The notes under the pieces are model-generated. The model was not told the DNA's origin. It saw only the letters and a list, made by a program, of their open reading frames with translations, and made no database searches. The position numbers and the translations under genes are program-made. A stretch of 64,000 bases of DNA from Gemmataceae bacterium (lineage in GTDB: Bacteria; Planctomycetota; Planctomycetia; Gemmatales; Gemmataceae): the NCBI GenBank assembly GCA_022616435.1, contig JAKEET010000070.1:1-64000 (forward strand), given 5' to 3'. Positions within the stretch are counted from its first letter, which is position 1. The number at the start of each line of letters is the position of its first letter. Positions 22,880 through 53,557 of the stretch are shown in pieces.

Positions 22880-22978
22880 GCGTGCGCGATTCCGCTGCAC
22901 CAACCCGAAGCGTAAGCGAGGGGAGTTGGTTGGGGCTTGCTCACGCGTCGCGCTGGTGCAGCGAAATTGCGCACGCTG
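22879..22978. repeat. Dispersed palindromic element, copy A
   Basis: The left arm (about 22879-22920) carries GATTCCGCTGCACCAACCCG followed by AAGCGTAAGCGAG; an imperfect inverted copy lies at about 22937-22978. The element begins on the last base of the upstream gene's TGA stop and runs to just before the ribosome-binding site of the GDPD gene. Related copies are at 52423-52517 and 53468-53557, with single arms at 23880-23904 and about 34249-34270. Confidence 0.8.
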
Positions 22979-48585: not shown

Positions 48586-50427
48586 ATGTGGAATCTTCCC
48601 ATGTTCCGACGCATCGTCTTGTTGGCGCCGTTGTTGACATTGTGCCTCTTGTGCCAATGCCAGAAGCCGAGCGTCGCCGACGTTCCCACACCCGGGAGTA
48701 CGGATCGGAGCCCGATCGATGTCGCGCTGCTGGAAGACGGCCGCCGCGCCGTGGTGGTCCATCACACCGCCGATTCGGTCGCGTTGGTGGACCTCCAAAC
48801 CGGGAAGGTCCTCGACGAGGCGCGCACCGGCCGCAAGCCGGCCGCCGTGGCGGTGCATCCGGACGGCAAGCGTCTCGCCGTCAGCAATCATTGGTCGCAC
48901 GACGTGCATTTCTTCGCTGTCGAGGGAAACAAGCTGGTTCGGCAAGCGGTCGCGCCGGTCGGGCCGCTGCCGCGCGGCTTGCTGTATTCGAACACTGGCG
49001 ACCGGCTGTTCGTGGCCGTCGCGGGCGCGGATGAAGTAGTGGCAATCGACCCGGCGACTCACAAGGTGACGCGGCGCTGGCCGGCGCCGCGCGAGCCACG
49101 GGAGCTGGCGCTGTCGGCCGACGGCCGCTGGCTGGCCGCGGCATCGAGCCGGTCCGGTCATGTCCGCGTCTGGAACACGGCGACCGGCGAATTGCACTGG
49201 GAACGGCAGATCGTGGACGCGTTCAACCTGCGCGGCCTGGCCTTTACCGCGGATGGGGATCACGTCATCTGCGCCCACGTGGTGCGCCGCGATCTGCCGG
49301 TGACCAAGGGCCACATCGAAGAAGGCTGGATCATCGACAGCCGGCTCACGCGCTTGCCGCTCAAGGCGAATGTGACGCCGCCGTACTTGCAGATCGCCCT
49401 CGATGTTCGCGGCGAAGCGATGGGCGACCCGCACGGGCTGGCGCTCAGTCCGGACGGCAAGCTGCTCGCCGTGACCGGCTCCGGATCGCATGAGCTGATC
49501 CTCATGCACACGGAGAACCTCCCCTGGAACACCGACCCCGGCGACTTCATCGACGGCCGGCTGCTTGACGGCAAGCAGCATCGCCGCGTCGCGCTGGGGG
49601 GCCGGCCCTTGGCCGCGAAGTTCGCGAAGGACCGGATCGTCATCGCCAATTACCTGTCCGACGCGCTGCAGATCGTCGATCCAGGCGCGGGAAAACTGGA
49701 GCGAACCGTCGCGCTGAGTGAGGTGAGGAAGCCGACGCTGGCGCGGCACGGCGAGGCGATCTTCTACGACGCCAAGCGCTCGCACAATCAATGGTTCAGC
49801 TGTCACACCTGCCACACCGACGGCCACACCAGCGGCCAGAACTTCGACACGCTCAACGACGATTCGTTCGGCACCACGAAGCTGACGCCGACCTTGCGCA
49901 ACGTCGCCAGGACGGGACCCTGGACCTGGCATGGCTGGCAAAAGGACCTCGGCGCGTCGGTCGCCAAATCGTTCACCGACACCATGTACGGTCCCCCCGG
50001 CGCCAAGGAGGATGTGCGGGCGGTGGTCGCGTTCCTGGAGACGCTGGAGCATCCGCCGCTGCCGACGCGGGACGTGCCGAAGCGGGACGTGCCGAAGCGG
50101 GACGTGCCGAAGCGGGCCGATCGGGCGATTGCCCGCGGCGCGGCGCTGTTCAGCGAGAAGGCCCGCTGCGCCCGCTGTCATCGGCCGCCGTTCTATACCG
50201 TCCCGGGCGCCTACGATGTCAAACTCGACAGCGGCGGCAGTCCTCATGACGGCTTCAATCCACCGTCGCTGAACGGTCTGTCGGACCGGGGACCATACCT
50301 CCACGACGGCCGGGCGAAAACGCTGGAAGAGGTGCTGCGGACCTGGCACACGCCGCGGCACGTGGGCGGGGCGGCGTTGACGGAGGACGAGGAACGCGAT
50401 CTGCTGGCGTTCTTGCGATCATTATGA
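48586..50427 (+). CDS. Di-haem c-type cytochrome / beta-propeller protein
   Basis: A 613-residue exported protein. A signal sequence (LLAPLLTLCLLCQC; lipidation at a Cys is possible but the box is not ideal) is followed by a propeller of YVTN/WD type over about residues 40-370 and then a cytochrome part with CHTCH near 405 and CARCH near 528. Two CxxCH sites suggest two haems as in MauG/CCP-like proteins. Before the second haem is a tandem of VPKRD units encoded by a perfect 15-base triple repeat (50071-50115). It probably transfers electrons in the periplasm, maybe to the partner propeller. The Met at 48601 is an alternative start. Its stop overlaps the IDH start (ATGA). Confidence 0.85.
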   Translation: MWNLPMFRRIVLLAPLLTLCLLCQCQKPSVADVPTPGSTDRSPIDVALLEDGRRAVVVHHTADSVALVDLQTGKVLDEARTGRKPAAVAVHPDGKRLAVSNHWSHDVHFFAVEGNKLVRQAVAPVGPLPRGLLYSNTGDRLFVAVAGADEVVAIDPATHKVTRRWPAPREPRELALSADGRWLAAASSRSGHVRVWNTATGELHWERQIVDAFNLRGLAFTADGDHVICAHVVRRDLPVTKGHIEEGWIIDSRLTRLPLKANVTPPYLQIALDVRGEAMGDPHGLALSPDGKLLAVTGSGSHELILMHTENLPWNTDPGDFIDGRLLDGKQHRRVALGGRPLAAKFAKDRIVIANYLSDALQIVDPGAGKLERTVALSEVRKPTLARHGEAIFYDAKRSHNQWFSCHTCHTDGHTSGQNFDTLNDDSFGTTKLTPTLRNVARTGPWTWHGWQKDLGASVAKSFTDTMYGPPGAKEDVRAVVAFLETLEHPPLPTRDVPKRDVPKRDVPKRADRAIARGAALFSEKARCARCHRPPFYTVPGAYDVKLDSGGSPHDGFNPPSLNGLSDRGPYLHDGRAKTLEEVLRTWHTPRHVGGAALTEDEERDLLAFLRSL

Positions 50428-51419
50428 CCCCCGTTGTCATGATCCCCGGCGACGGCATTGGCCCCGAGGTGATGGCCGCGACGCGGCACATCCTCGCGGC
50501 GGCCGGGGCGCGCGTCCATTGGATCGAGGCGGTGGCCGGGCTGGCGGCCATGGAACAGCACGGCGAACCATTGCCGGACGCGACGCTCGACCTGATCCGC
50601 AAGCACCGCGTCGCCCTCAAGGGTCCGTGCACCACGCCGATCGGCAAGGGCTTTCGGTCCATCAACGTTCGCCTGCGCAAGGACCTCCAGCTCTACGCCA
50701 GCGTGCGGCCGGTGCAGTCGCTGCCTGGGATCAAGGTGCCGTATCAAAATGTCAGCCTGATCGTCGTCCGCGAAAACACGGAGGGTTTGTACGCCGGCCT
50801 GGAACATTACGTGGTGCCGGGCGTGGTGGAAAGCCTGCGGCTGGTGACCCGCGAGGCGGCCGAGCGCATCGTCCGCTACGCCTTCGAGCTGGGCCGCAAC
50901 CAGGGCCGGCGCAAGATCACCGTCGTTCACAAGGCCGACGTGCTGCCGATGAGCGACGGCATGTTCCTGGCCGCGGCCCAGCGCGTGGCCGACGATTACC
51001 CGTTTCTGGAATTCGAAGAGTTGCCGATCGACCGCGTCGCCCTGGAGCTGGCGCTGGAGCCGGCGCGGTTCGACGTGCTGGTGATGGAGAACCTGTTCGG
51101 CGACGTGATGAGTGACTTGTGCGCGGGCCTCGTGGGTGGGTTGGGCTTGGTGCCGGGGGCCAACATCGGCGCCCGTTACGCGCTCTTCGAAGCGGTGCAC
51201 GGCAGCGCCCCCGACATCGCCGGCAAGGGCCTGGCCAACCCGATCGCCCTGGTCCGCTCGGCAGCGATGATGCTCGAGTACATTGGCCAGCGCGAGCCGG
51301 CGCGGCGGATCGAAGCGTCCGTCCGCGCGACGTTGCAGGCCGGCCAAGGGCTGACGCGGGATCTCGGCGGCGACGGCAACACCACGACAATCACCGAACG
51401 GCTGATCGCGAACCTGTGA
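50424..51419 (+). CDS. NAD-type isocitrate dehydrogenase family protein, putative catalytic subunit
   Basis: A 331-residue member of the isocitrate/isopropylmalate dehydrogenase family. Motifs: GDGIGPEV at the N-terminus, SINVRLRKDLQLYASVRP (substrate Ser and Arg residues), VVRENTEGLYAGLEH (Arg and Tyr), TVVHKADVLPMSDG (catalytic Lys), NLFGDVMSDL (metal Asps) and FEAVHGSAPDIAGKGLANP for NAD binding. It oxidises isocitrate to 2-oxoglutarate and CO2, or a related 2-hydroxyacid. Length and HGSAPDIAGK suit the short NAD-dependent mitochondrial IDH3-like class. It starts within the stop of the cytochrome gene and is followed 9 bases later by a divergent paralogue of the same length, so the two may make a heteromer. 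Confidence 0.88.
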   Translation: MTPVVMIPGDGIGPEVMAATRHILAAAGARVHWIEAVAGLAAMEQHGEPLPDATLDLIRKHRVALKGPCTTPIGKGFRSINVRLRKDLQLYASVRPVQSLPGIKVPYQNVSLIVVRENTEGLYAGLEHYVVPGVVESLRLVTREAAERIVRYAFELGRNQGRRKITVVHKADVLPMSDGMFLAAAQRVADDYPFLEFEELPIDRVALELALEPARFDVLVMENLFGDVMSDLCAGLVGGLGLVPGANIGARYALFEAVHGSAPDIAGKGLANPIALVRSAAMMLEYIGQREPARRIEASVRATLQAGQGLTRDLGGDGNTTTITERLIANL

Positions 51420-51428
51420 AGACGTATC

Positions 51429-52424
51429 ATGTTGCGAGTTCCTCTCATCCACGGCGGCGGCATCGGGCATGACATCGTCCCGGCCGTGAAAGGCATCATC
51501 GCCGCAGCCGGCGTCGCCATCGCCTGGGATGAGCATCTCGCCGGCGGCGAGGCCGCGGCGCAGGGCCATGAGCCCCTCCCCAGAGCGATGCTCGATGCCG
51601 TCCGGCAAGCAGGCCTCGCTCTGAAGACCAAACTGCAGCTGGCGCCGCGCGACGCGCGCGTCAACTACAACATCCTCCTGCGCCGCGAGCTGGACCTGTT
51701 CGCGTCGGTGCGGCCCCTGAAGAACTTGCAGGGTTTGCCGGCGCGGTTTCAGAATGTCGACATGCTCGTCGTCCGCGAGCTGACCGAAGACCTCTATGCC
51801 TCCATCGAGCACGAAATCGTTCCGGGCGTGGTGCAGAGCATCAAGGTGGTGACCGAAACCGCCAGCCGGCGCTTCTTCCGCTTTGCGTTCGATTGGGCCC
51901 GCGCTCATGGCCGGCGGAGCGTCCATTGCGTTCACAAGGCGAACATCCTGAAGCTGGCCGACGGCTTGTTCCTGGAAGCGTTTCGCGGCGTCGCCAAGGA
52001 CTACCCTGACCTGCAGCCGAAGGAAATCATCGTGGATAACTGTTGCATGCAGATGGTGTCCAGGCCGCAGCAGTTCGACGTGCTGGCCATGGGCAACCTG
52101 TACGGCGACATCGTCAGCGACCTGGGGGCGGGACTGGTCGGCGGCATCAGCGCCACCCACGGCATCAACGTCGGCGCGGGGGTGAAGATTTTTGAGTCGT
52201 TCCACGGCGGCAGCCGGGAGAGCATCGGCGTCAACCGGGCCAATCCGCTGCCGTTGCTGCTGCCGGCCATCGATTTGCTGAACGCGCTAGGCCACCAGGC
52301 CGCGGCGGAGCGGATTCATGGGGCGGTGGAGCGGGTGCTAAGCCAGGGCCGCGTCCGGTCGCGCGATCTGGGGGGGGACGCGACGACGACCGAGTTCGCC
52401 GAGGCGATTAGCGCGGCGCTCTGA
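51429..52424 (+). CDS. Isocitrate dehydrogenase paralogue, putative regulatory subunit
   Basis: Also 331 residues and clearly related to the preceding protein, but several cofactor and substrate positions differ. The N-terminal loop is HGGGIGHDI instead of GDGIGPE. Substrate motif is YNILLRRELDLFASVRP (the Ser is lost), while RELTEDLYASIEH and VHKANILKLADGLF keep the Arg, Tyr and Lys. Metal Asps are retained (NLYGDIVSDLGAGL). The NAD-binding HGSAPDIAGK is replaced by HGGSRESIGVNRANP. This pattern recalls the beta/gamma subunits of eukaryotic IDH3, which regulate the alpha subunit. Regulatory role is inference. The stop codon is also the start of the repeat element copy B. Confidence 0.72.
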   Translation: MLRVPLIHGGGIGHDIVPAVKGIIAAAGVAIAWDEHLAGGEAAAQGHEPLPRAMLDAVRQAGLALKTKLQLAPRDARVNYNILLRRELDLFASVRPLKNLQGLPARFQNVDMLVVRELTEDLYASIEHEIVPGVVQSIKVVTETASRRFFRFAFDWARAHGRRSVHCVHKANILKLADGLFLEAFRGVAKDYPDLQPKEIIVDNCCMQMVSRPQQFDVLAMGNLYGDIVSDLGAGLVGGISATHGINVGAGVKIFESFHGGSRESIGVNRANPLPLLLPAIDLLNALGHQAAAERIHGAVERVLSQGRVRSRDLGGDATTTEFAEAISAAL

Positions 52425-53467: not shown

Positions 53468-53557
53468 GAGCGTGTGATTCCGCTGCACTAACCCGACGCG
53501 TGAGCGAGGGGAGGAAGCGAAATCCCTCGCTTACGCGTCGGGTTGGTGCAGCAAGAC
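53468..53557. repeat. Dispersed palindromic element, copy C
   Basis: Left arm 53474-53510 (GTGATTCCGCTGCACTAACC...GCGAGGG) and right arm 53524-53557 are inverted copies with a few mismatches. The ATGAGCGTGTG before it resembles the TGAGCGTGCG lead of copies A and B. Here the lead lies 33 bases past the metallophosphatase stop rather than on it. It forms most of the upstream region of yidC. Confidence 0.8.

Follow-up and report, generated by a model that had tools for sequence, protein, structure and literature searches.

We analysed two adjacent genes, P1 and P2 (Table 1), in the genome of a Gemmataceae bacterium (GCA_022616435.1). The window, meaning the whole stretch under analysis, covers 64,000 nucleotides (JAKEET010000070.1 1-64,000). 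Judged from their sequences, P1 and P2 are very probably two subunits of one heteromeric isocitrate dehydrogenase (IDH) dependent on nicotinamide adenine dinucleotide (NAD). In this enzyme P2 would complete the active site of P1 and probably sense a hydroxy-acid, and the underlying bacterial duplication was probably separate from that of IDH3. The pair most likely represents an ancient bacterial heteromeric NAD-IDH that would work in an IDH3-like manner. Bacterial enzymes of this branch have been described as homodimeric or homotetrameric, and the heteromeric allosteric NAD-IDH as eukaryotic (PMC8333347, PMC4360740). A bacterial heteromeric NAD-IDH was not found in the open-access literature, and one may have been reported elsewhere.

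Family and fold of P1 and P2

Both proteins match PF00180 over its full length (P1 328.7 bits, P2 253.3 bits, cut-off 27). The best NCBIfam match of P2 is TIGR00175 (mito_nad_idh), whose curated cut-off of 432.4 is reached neither by P2 (356.8) nor by P1 (373.6). Among solved structures, both proteins come closest to human IDH3 alpha and to the bacterial NAD-IDHs 6lky and 6ltf. P1 prefers IDH3 alpha (337 bits) over beta (245), and P2 scores nearly equally against the two (252 and 247). The predicted structure of P2 has the IDH fold, with a predicted local distance difference test (pLDDT) value of 92 and a predicted template modelling score (pTM) of 0.90. Its template modelling (TM) score reaches 0.92 against 6lky and is close to 0.89 against human IDH3 (gamma) chains, a comparison that tests the fold and not the complex.

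The earlier note had considered that P2 might group with a dehydrogenase family of another substrate, but P2 falls with the NAD-IDHs. Homoisocitrate dehydrogenase and 3-isopropylmalate dehydrogenase share the PF00180 superfamily and its chemistry with P1 and P2. We rejected both assignments because profile and PDB scores were lower (homoisocitrate dehydrogenase was compared by PDB score only) and the isopropylmalate-type outgroups stand apart in the trees.

Active-site residues of P1 and P2

In human IDH3 alpha, isocitrate is contacted by Thr74, Ser82, Asn84, Arg88, Arg98, and Arg119 (T71, S79, N81, R85, R95, and R116 in P1 numbering). The catalytic tyrosine is Tyr126 (Y123), the metal is bound by Asp230 and Asp234 (D227 and D231), and the NAD site is the HGTAPD loop at 259-264 (PMC9731866, PMC5241874). 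The beta chain gives Lys184, Asn186, and Asp217 (K170, N172, and D203) to the active site of its neighbour, and Asn186 binds NAD in trans (PMC9731866). P1 contains GDGIGPE, S79/N81, R85/R95/R116, Y123, K170, D203/D227/D231, and HGSAPDIAGK. The earlier claim that P1 keeps the substrate, metal, and NAD motifs holds residue by residue, although it overlooked Asp at position 172 (HKADV), where single-gene homologues and P2 have Asn. P1 has all the residues expected of an IDH, namely three Arg, Tyr, Lys, the metal Asps, and S-x-N-x-x-x-R, an IDH-type motif that distinguishes it from the homoisocitrate and 3-isopropylmalate enzymes. It is of the NAD type and not of the type that uses NAD phosphate (NADP), since D264/I265 follow HGSAP where the NADP type has Lys-Tyr. 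The specificity residue D264 corresponds to human alpha Asp268 (PMC9731866). Among relatives, the long-type IDHs have Lys-Tyr at this site, as does a second, NADP-type IDH of the same genome with an HGTAPKY loop (contig C92), so the pair is not the sole IDH of the genome. The genome also has an isopropylmalate-dehydrogenase-like gene (C160).

P2 is 43% identical to P1. It has HGGGIGHD for PGDGIGPE, TK for GP at 67-68, L71 for T71, N79 for S79, and the loop HGGSRESIGV instead of HGSAPDIAGK, while it retains R85/R95/R116, Y123, K170, N172, D203, D227, and D231. This agrees with the earlier description of P2 as keeping the Arg, Tyr, Lys, and metal Asps and lacking GDGIGPE, the substrate Ser, and the NAD loop. 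P2 does not qualify as a catalyst, for the required HG[ST]APD loop and the substrate Ser/Thr are absent (HGGSRE, N79, L71). K170, N172, D203, R85, R95, R116, and D227 are invariant across 38 P2 orthologues. HGSAPD is invariant across 31 P1 orthologues; the sampled Gemmatales rows of P1 have D, E, or S at position 172.

Complementary loss of Asn172 and joint occurrence

A genome scan with the P2 alignment, of which we took the best 80 of 269 matches, also matched Myxococcota, Acidobacteriota (Thermoanaerobaculia), and Marinimicrobia, and every such match was one half of a tandem pair. From partial samples of these phyla (379, 297, and 199 genomes, respectively) we obtained 45 distinct tandem pairs outside Gemmatales, with the catalytic gene first in all and a 4-nucleotide overlap in 16. 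The pair is present in at least four bacterial phyla. These four are the only phyla in which pairs were reached, and the tree and database results rest on fewer than 150 rows. Whether the genes are conserved as neighbours, which the earlier note had proposed to check, is answered by their adjacency in Gemmatales and three other phyla.

The upstream genes keep S79, N81, and the HG[ST]AP loop and have S, A, G, T, D, P, or Q at position 172; in the downstream genes the NAD loop is broken. N172 is present in one of the 45 upstream genes versus all 45 downstream genes. R85, R95, R116, Y123, K170, D203, and D227 are kept in both members of every pair (45/45). True single-gene homologues have N172 in all cases and the NAD loop in all but rare exceptions; in the list of singles, N172 is missing from one entry, which is in fact the fusion described below, and two rows are unlinked Gemmatales P2 genes. 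On a tree of 149 rows, Asn172 is found in 1 of 55 catalytic members, 55 of 55 partners, and 28 of 28 singles, with eight replacements among the catalytic members. The upstream member that keeps Asn172 belongs to the pair L260, and its partner lacks the NAD loop (SAGDDA); this pair may be an intermediate or a reversal.

At the sequence level, this complementary loss and the invariant K170 and D203 are what an IDH3-like supply of Lys, Asn, and Asp by the partner in trans would predict. Loss of the trans Asn from the catalytic chain, with its strict retention in the NAD-less chain, is the pattern that an obligate heteromer would produce; independent homo-oligomers would be unlikely to tolerate such a division. 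A natural fusion gives indirect support to a physical heterodimer or heterotetramer. In one myxococcotal genome, both members form a single open reading frame of 711 residues (L257:348-2480, contig G306:C367). A linker rich in Ala and Pro, about 40 residues long, joins its catalytic half (HKAS, HGSAPD) to its partner half (HKAN, HGRAPE). The fusion is known from this single assembly.

We examined joint occurrence in the window genome and 98 relatives. Both genes are present in 43 of these 99 genomes, P1 alone in none, P2 alone in two, and neither in 54 (Fisher 5e-26, a statistic that ignores kinship). The two genomes with P2 only are fragmented, the assembly of G017 having about 1500 contigs and that of G002 about 740. 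P1 and P2 are adjacent, with P1 first, in 21 of the 43 genomes, and the joint presence or absence holds for unlinked genes too. Within genus g34, one genome carries both genes about 10 kb apart (G050) and another carries neither (G033). Most genomes examined are metagenome-assembled genomes (MAGs). The P2-type carriers with names either belong to Gemmatales, Zavarzinella formosa, Limnoglobus roseus, and Gemmata among them, or are MAGs with no more precise label. In a phylum-wide Planctomycetota sample searched at a strict threshold, which strongly diverged partners would escape, no partner-type gene besides that of the window was found. A genome titled Bacteroidales (L135) has a Gemmatales-type P2 at 58% identity and is probably a mislabelled or mis-binned MAG. 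The trees of catalytic and partner members are correlated (mirror-tree r 0.82, exceeded in 0 of 2000 permutations), a signal that includes species history.

These data bear on the possibility that P1 and P2 form independent homo-oligomers, P2 being a dehydrogenase-like protein with another substrate or a moonlighting function. Such a reading would accommodate the genes that lie apart in Gemmatales and the absence from P2 of Ser79 and Thr71, which are isocitrate gamma-carboxylate contacts (human Ser82 and Thr74). However, ordinary dehydrogenase chemistry is unlikely for a protein with no NAD site, and the joint presence and absence, the fusion, the complementary loss of Asn172, the retained catalytic Lys and Asp, and the placement of P2 among NAD-IDHs all argue against it. 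We regard it as very unlikely. The heteromer proposed in the earlier note is favoured by the complementary active-site loss, the co-occurrence, and the natural fusion. The idea that P2 is a decaying, functionless duplicate could appeal to its lost motifs, but the ratio of nonsynonymous to synonymous substitution rates (dN/dS) of P2 is 0.07-0.18, indicating purifying selection, its frame is open with no internal stops in 44 genomes, and it has invariant residues. These contradict a pseudogene, and we give this idea practically no credit.

Proposed mechanism and role of P2

We infer a physical heteromer with catalysis in trans, effector binding, and a role in the tricarboxylic acid (TCA) cycle. 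P1 would bind isocitrate, metal, and NAD and provide the catalytic Tyr. P2, lacking the usual NAD binding, would complete the active site of P1 by reaching across the dimer interface with Lys170, Asn172, and Asp203. The P2 pocket of three Arg, Tyr, and metal Asp probably binds metal-chelated citrate, isocitrate, or a similar hydroxy-acid as a sensor. We propose such an effector because the groups for hydroxy-acid and metal are kept while those for the gamma-carboxylate and NAD vary. Ligand binding to P2 would then change the activity of P1 through the interface, and from this we infer allosteric regulation via P2.

The likeness to human IDH3 (alpha/beta/gamma) drawn in the earlier note stands for the working principle: a catalytic subunit is combined with paralogues without the NAD loop, Lys, Asn, and Asp would come from the partner in trans, and the fold is the same. 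It probably does not extend to ancestry, as the best trees place the two bacterial subunits and those of eukaryotes in separate clades. The bacterial pair also has two subunits instead of three, its partners retain the metal Asp 227 and the three Arg, and its catalytic subunits lack the trans Asn which human alpha has. P2 shares with human gamma the signalling triad (K139-D178-Y225), which carries the citrate signal in gamma (PMC5241874); unlike gamma, it lacks the gamma-type S79 and nucleotide loop. Yeast NAD-IDH, likewise made of two subunits, resembles the bacterial pair even more in its way of working, with a regulatory IDH1 that has the trans Asn and a catalytic IDH2 that has Thr instead, but IDH1 has lost R95 and both metal Asps and groups with the eukaryotic subunits. 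The bacterial subfamily III NAD-IDHs (Methylococcus 6lky, Xanthomonas 6ltf/6m3s) are the nearest structures and have a P1-like active site; single-gene homologues of this type are found in Pirellulales, Acidobacteriota, and Myxococcota. Unlike in the pair, one gene there has Asn172 and the NAD loop in the same chain. These enzymes are homodimers or homotetramers according to PMC4360740 and the titles of 6ltf/6m3s.

P2 might instead be purely structural, completing the P1 site in trans while its own pocket senses nothing, as in human IDH3 beta. The invariant Lys170, Asn172, and Asp203 together with the degenerate nucleotide site would fit this role. Human beta is described as structural in PMC5816668, and its wild-type pseudo-allosteric site does not bind activators (PMC9731866). 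Yet R85, R95, R116, Y123, and D227 are found in all partners despite their fast evolution (mean distance 2.45 versus 1.46 for catalytic members); human beta, by contrast, no longer has R95, D227, or D231. P2 also keeps the Lys-Asp-Tyr triad of the citrate-signal path. A structural role alone is a serious alternative, though we consider it rather unlikely, and we favour a P2 that also senses a ligand.

Several points weigh against a sensing heteromer. The genes lie apart in 22 of the 43 Gemmatales genomes, the distance being 347 kb in G031, a genome on a single contig, and the catalytic member of L260 keeps Asn172. The mirror-tree and co-occurrence figures carry shared species history. P1 has R139 and F225 in place of human alpha Lys142 and Tyr228 of the signalling network (roles in the human enzyme: PMC5241874), which means that the details of signal transmission must differ from human IDH3. 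Since Thr71, Ser79, and the nucleotide loop are missing from P2, this protein may bind something other than isocitrate, or nothing at all.

Ancestry of the pair

We built a quick tree of 149 rows and a careful tree of 75 rows (LG+C20+F+G4), in which eukaryotes are represented by five PDB chains of human and yeast subunits. The bacterial catalytic members, including P1, form one clade (95 in the quick tree, 99/94 in the careful tree), and the bacterial partners, including P2, form a second (99 and 99/98). A third clade unites alpha, beta, gamma, IDH1, and IDH2 of eukaryotes (97/98). When 90 functional-site residues were dropped, the catalytic (98/95), partner (92/96), and eukaryotic (95/96) clades persisted, which rules out that the clades are artefacts of shared active-site loss. 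P1 is not inside the eukaryotic alpha/IDH2 clade, and forcing the bacterial and eukaryotic catalytic subunits together was weakly rejected by the approximately unbiased (AU) test (p 0.038). P2 is separate from the beta/gamma/IDH1 clade in the best trees, and forcing the partners together with the eukaryotic regulatory subunits was not rejected (AU p 0.177).

The pair probably arose by one bacterial duplication, separate from that of mitochondrial IDH3. A single duplication shared with mitochondrial IDH3, making the subunits orthologous one by one, would be compatible with the AU result for the partners, the below-cut-off TIGR00175 match of P2, and the common working principle. The single eukaryotic clade and the weak rejection of a joint catalytic clade argue against it, and the residue losses differ, with the metal Asps lost in the eukaryotic regulatory subunits and mostly kept in the bacterial ones. 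We consider a shared duplication improbable. We likewise give little credence to a descent of mitochondrial NAD-IDH's regulatory half from the bacterial partner lineage, by which an allosteric heteromeric IDH would predate mitochondria and have been inherited by eukaryotes. The single gene of Pirellulales was rejected as a pre-duplication form within Planctomycetota, as larger trees put the duplication earlier, common to other phyla. In some myxococcotal partners (L272, L283, L287, L288, L289, and L294), the alteration of the NAD loop extends to its HG (xHV...). The trees place these partners nearest to Gemmatales P2, which hints at a transfer between Myxococcota and Gemmatales.

Locus and gene surroundings

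The open reading frame coordinates bear out the equal lengths and the 9-base gap reported earlier. Both genes start with ATG in the same frame and are probably co-transcribed; a read-through from P1 to P2 in the window would have a linker of 4 residues. The equal length is local to the window genome, since P2 orthologues have 329-351 residues and P1 orthologues 330-339.

Table 1. Features of the P1-P2 locus in the window
Feature	Coordinates	Strand	Remarks
P1, predicted catalytic subunit of NAD-dependent isocitrate dehydrogenase	50424..51419	+	331 aa; substrate, metal, and NAD site complete in cis; Asp replaces the trans-acting Asn172
P2, predicted partner (accessory, probably regulatory) subunit	51429..52424	+	331 aa; no NAD site left, but the pocket of three Arg, Tyr, and metal Asp is retained; Lys170/Asn172/Asp203 predicted in trans to P1 from the homologous Lys184/Asn186/Asp217 of human beta (PMC9731866)
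Intergenic gap AGACGTATC	51420..51428	+	9 bases between P1 stop and P2 start
ATGA overlap	50424..50427	+	4 nt; P1 start with stop of the upstream beta-propeller/cytochrome-c gene
Long near-perfect hairpin directly 3' of P2	52431..52519	.	copy of a dispersed palindromic repeat; outside the enzyme

The gene upstream of P1 (48586-50427) has beta-propeller and cytochrome-c/MauG-type domains and tandem RDVPK repeats. We looked for a shared TCA operon in the flanks of the window pair and of a Marinimicrobia pair and found no common context: the former lies beside beta-propeller/cytochrome, phosphoesterase, and YidC genes, the latter beside LepA, thioesterase, and RmlD. The hairpin has a DNA folding energy of -53.9 kcal/mol (z -12.7) and may lie where the transcription unit ends. 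The genome contains 172 occurrences of its arm CACCAACCCGAAGCGTNNGCGAGGG and 0 of the reversed control. The copies are often paired head-to-head about 12 bases apart and constitute a dispersed palindromic repeat family, with further sites in the window at 22898-22923 and 53523-53548.

Significance

P1 and P2 match the same family models, and P2 is likely to be mistaken for a second active enzyme in annotation. If our reading is true, the pair would offer a simpler system for the study of TCA-cycle allostery, with Limnoglobus roseus, Zavarzinella formosa, and Gemmata as cultured hosts. The division of labour between catalytic and partner subunits, so far described for mitochondria, would then have evolved at least twice.

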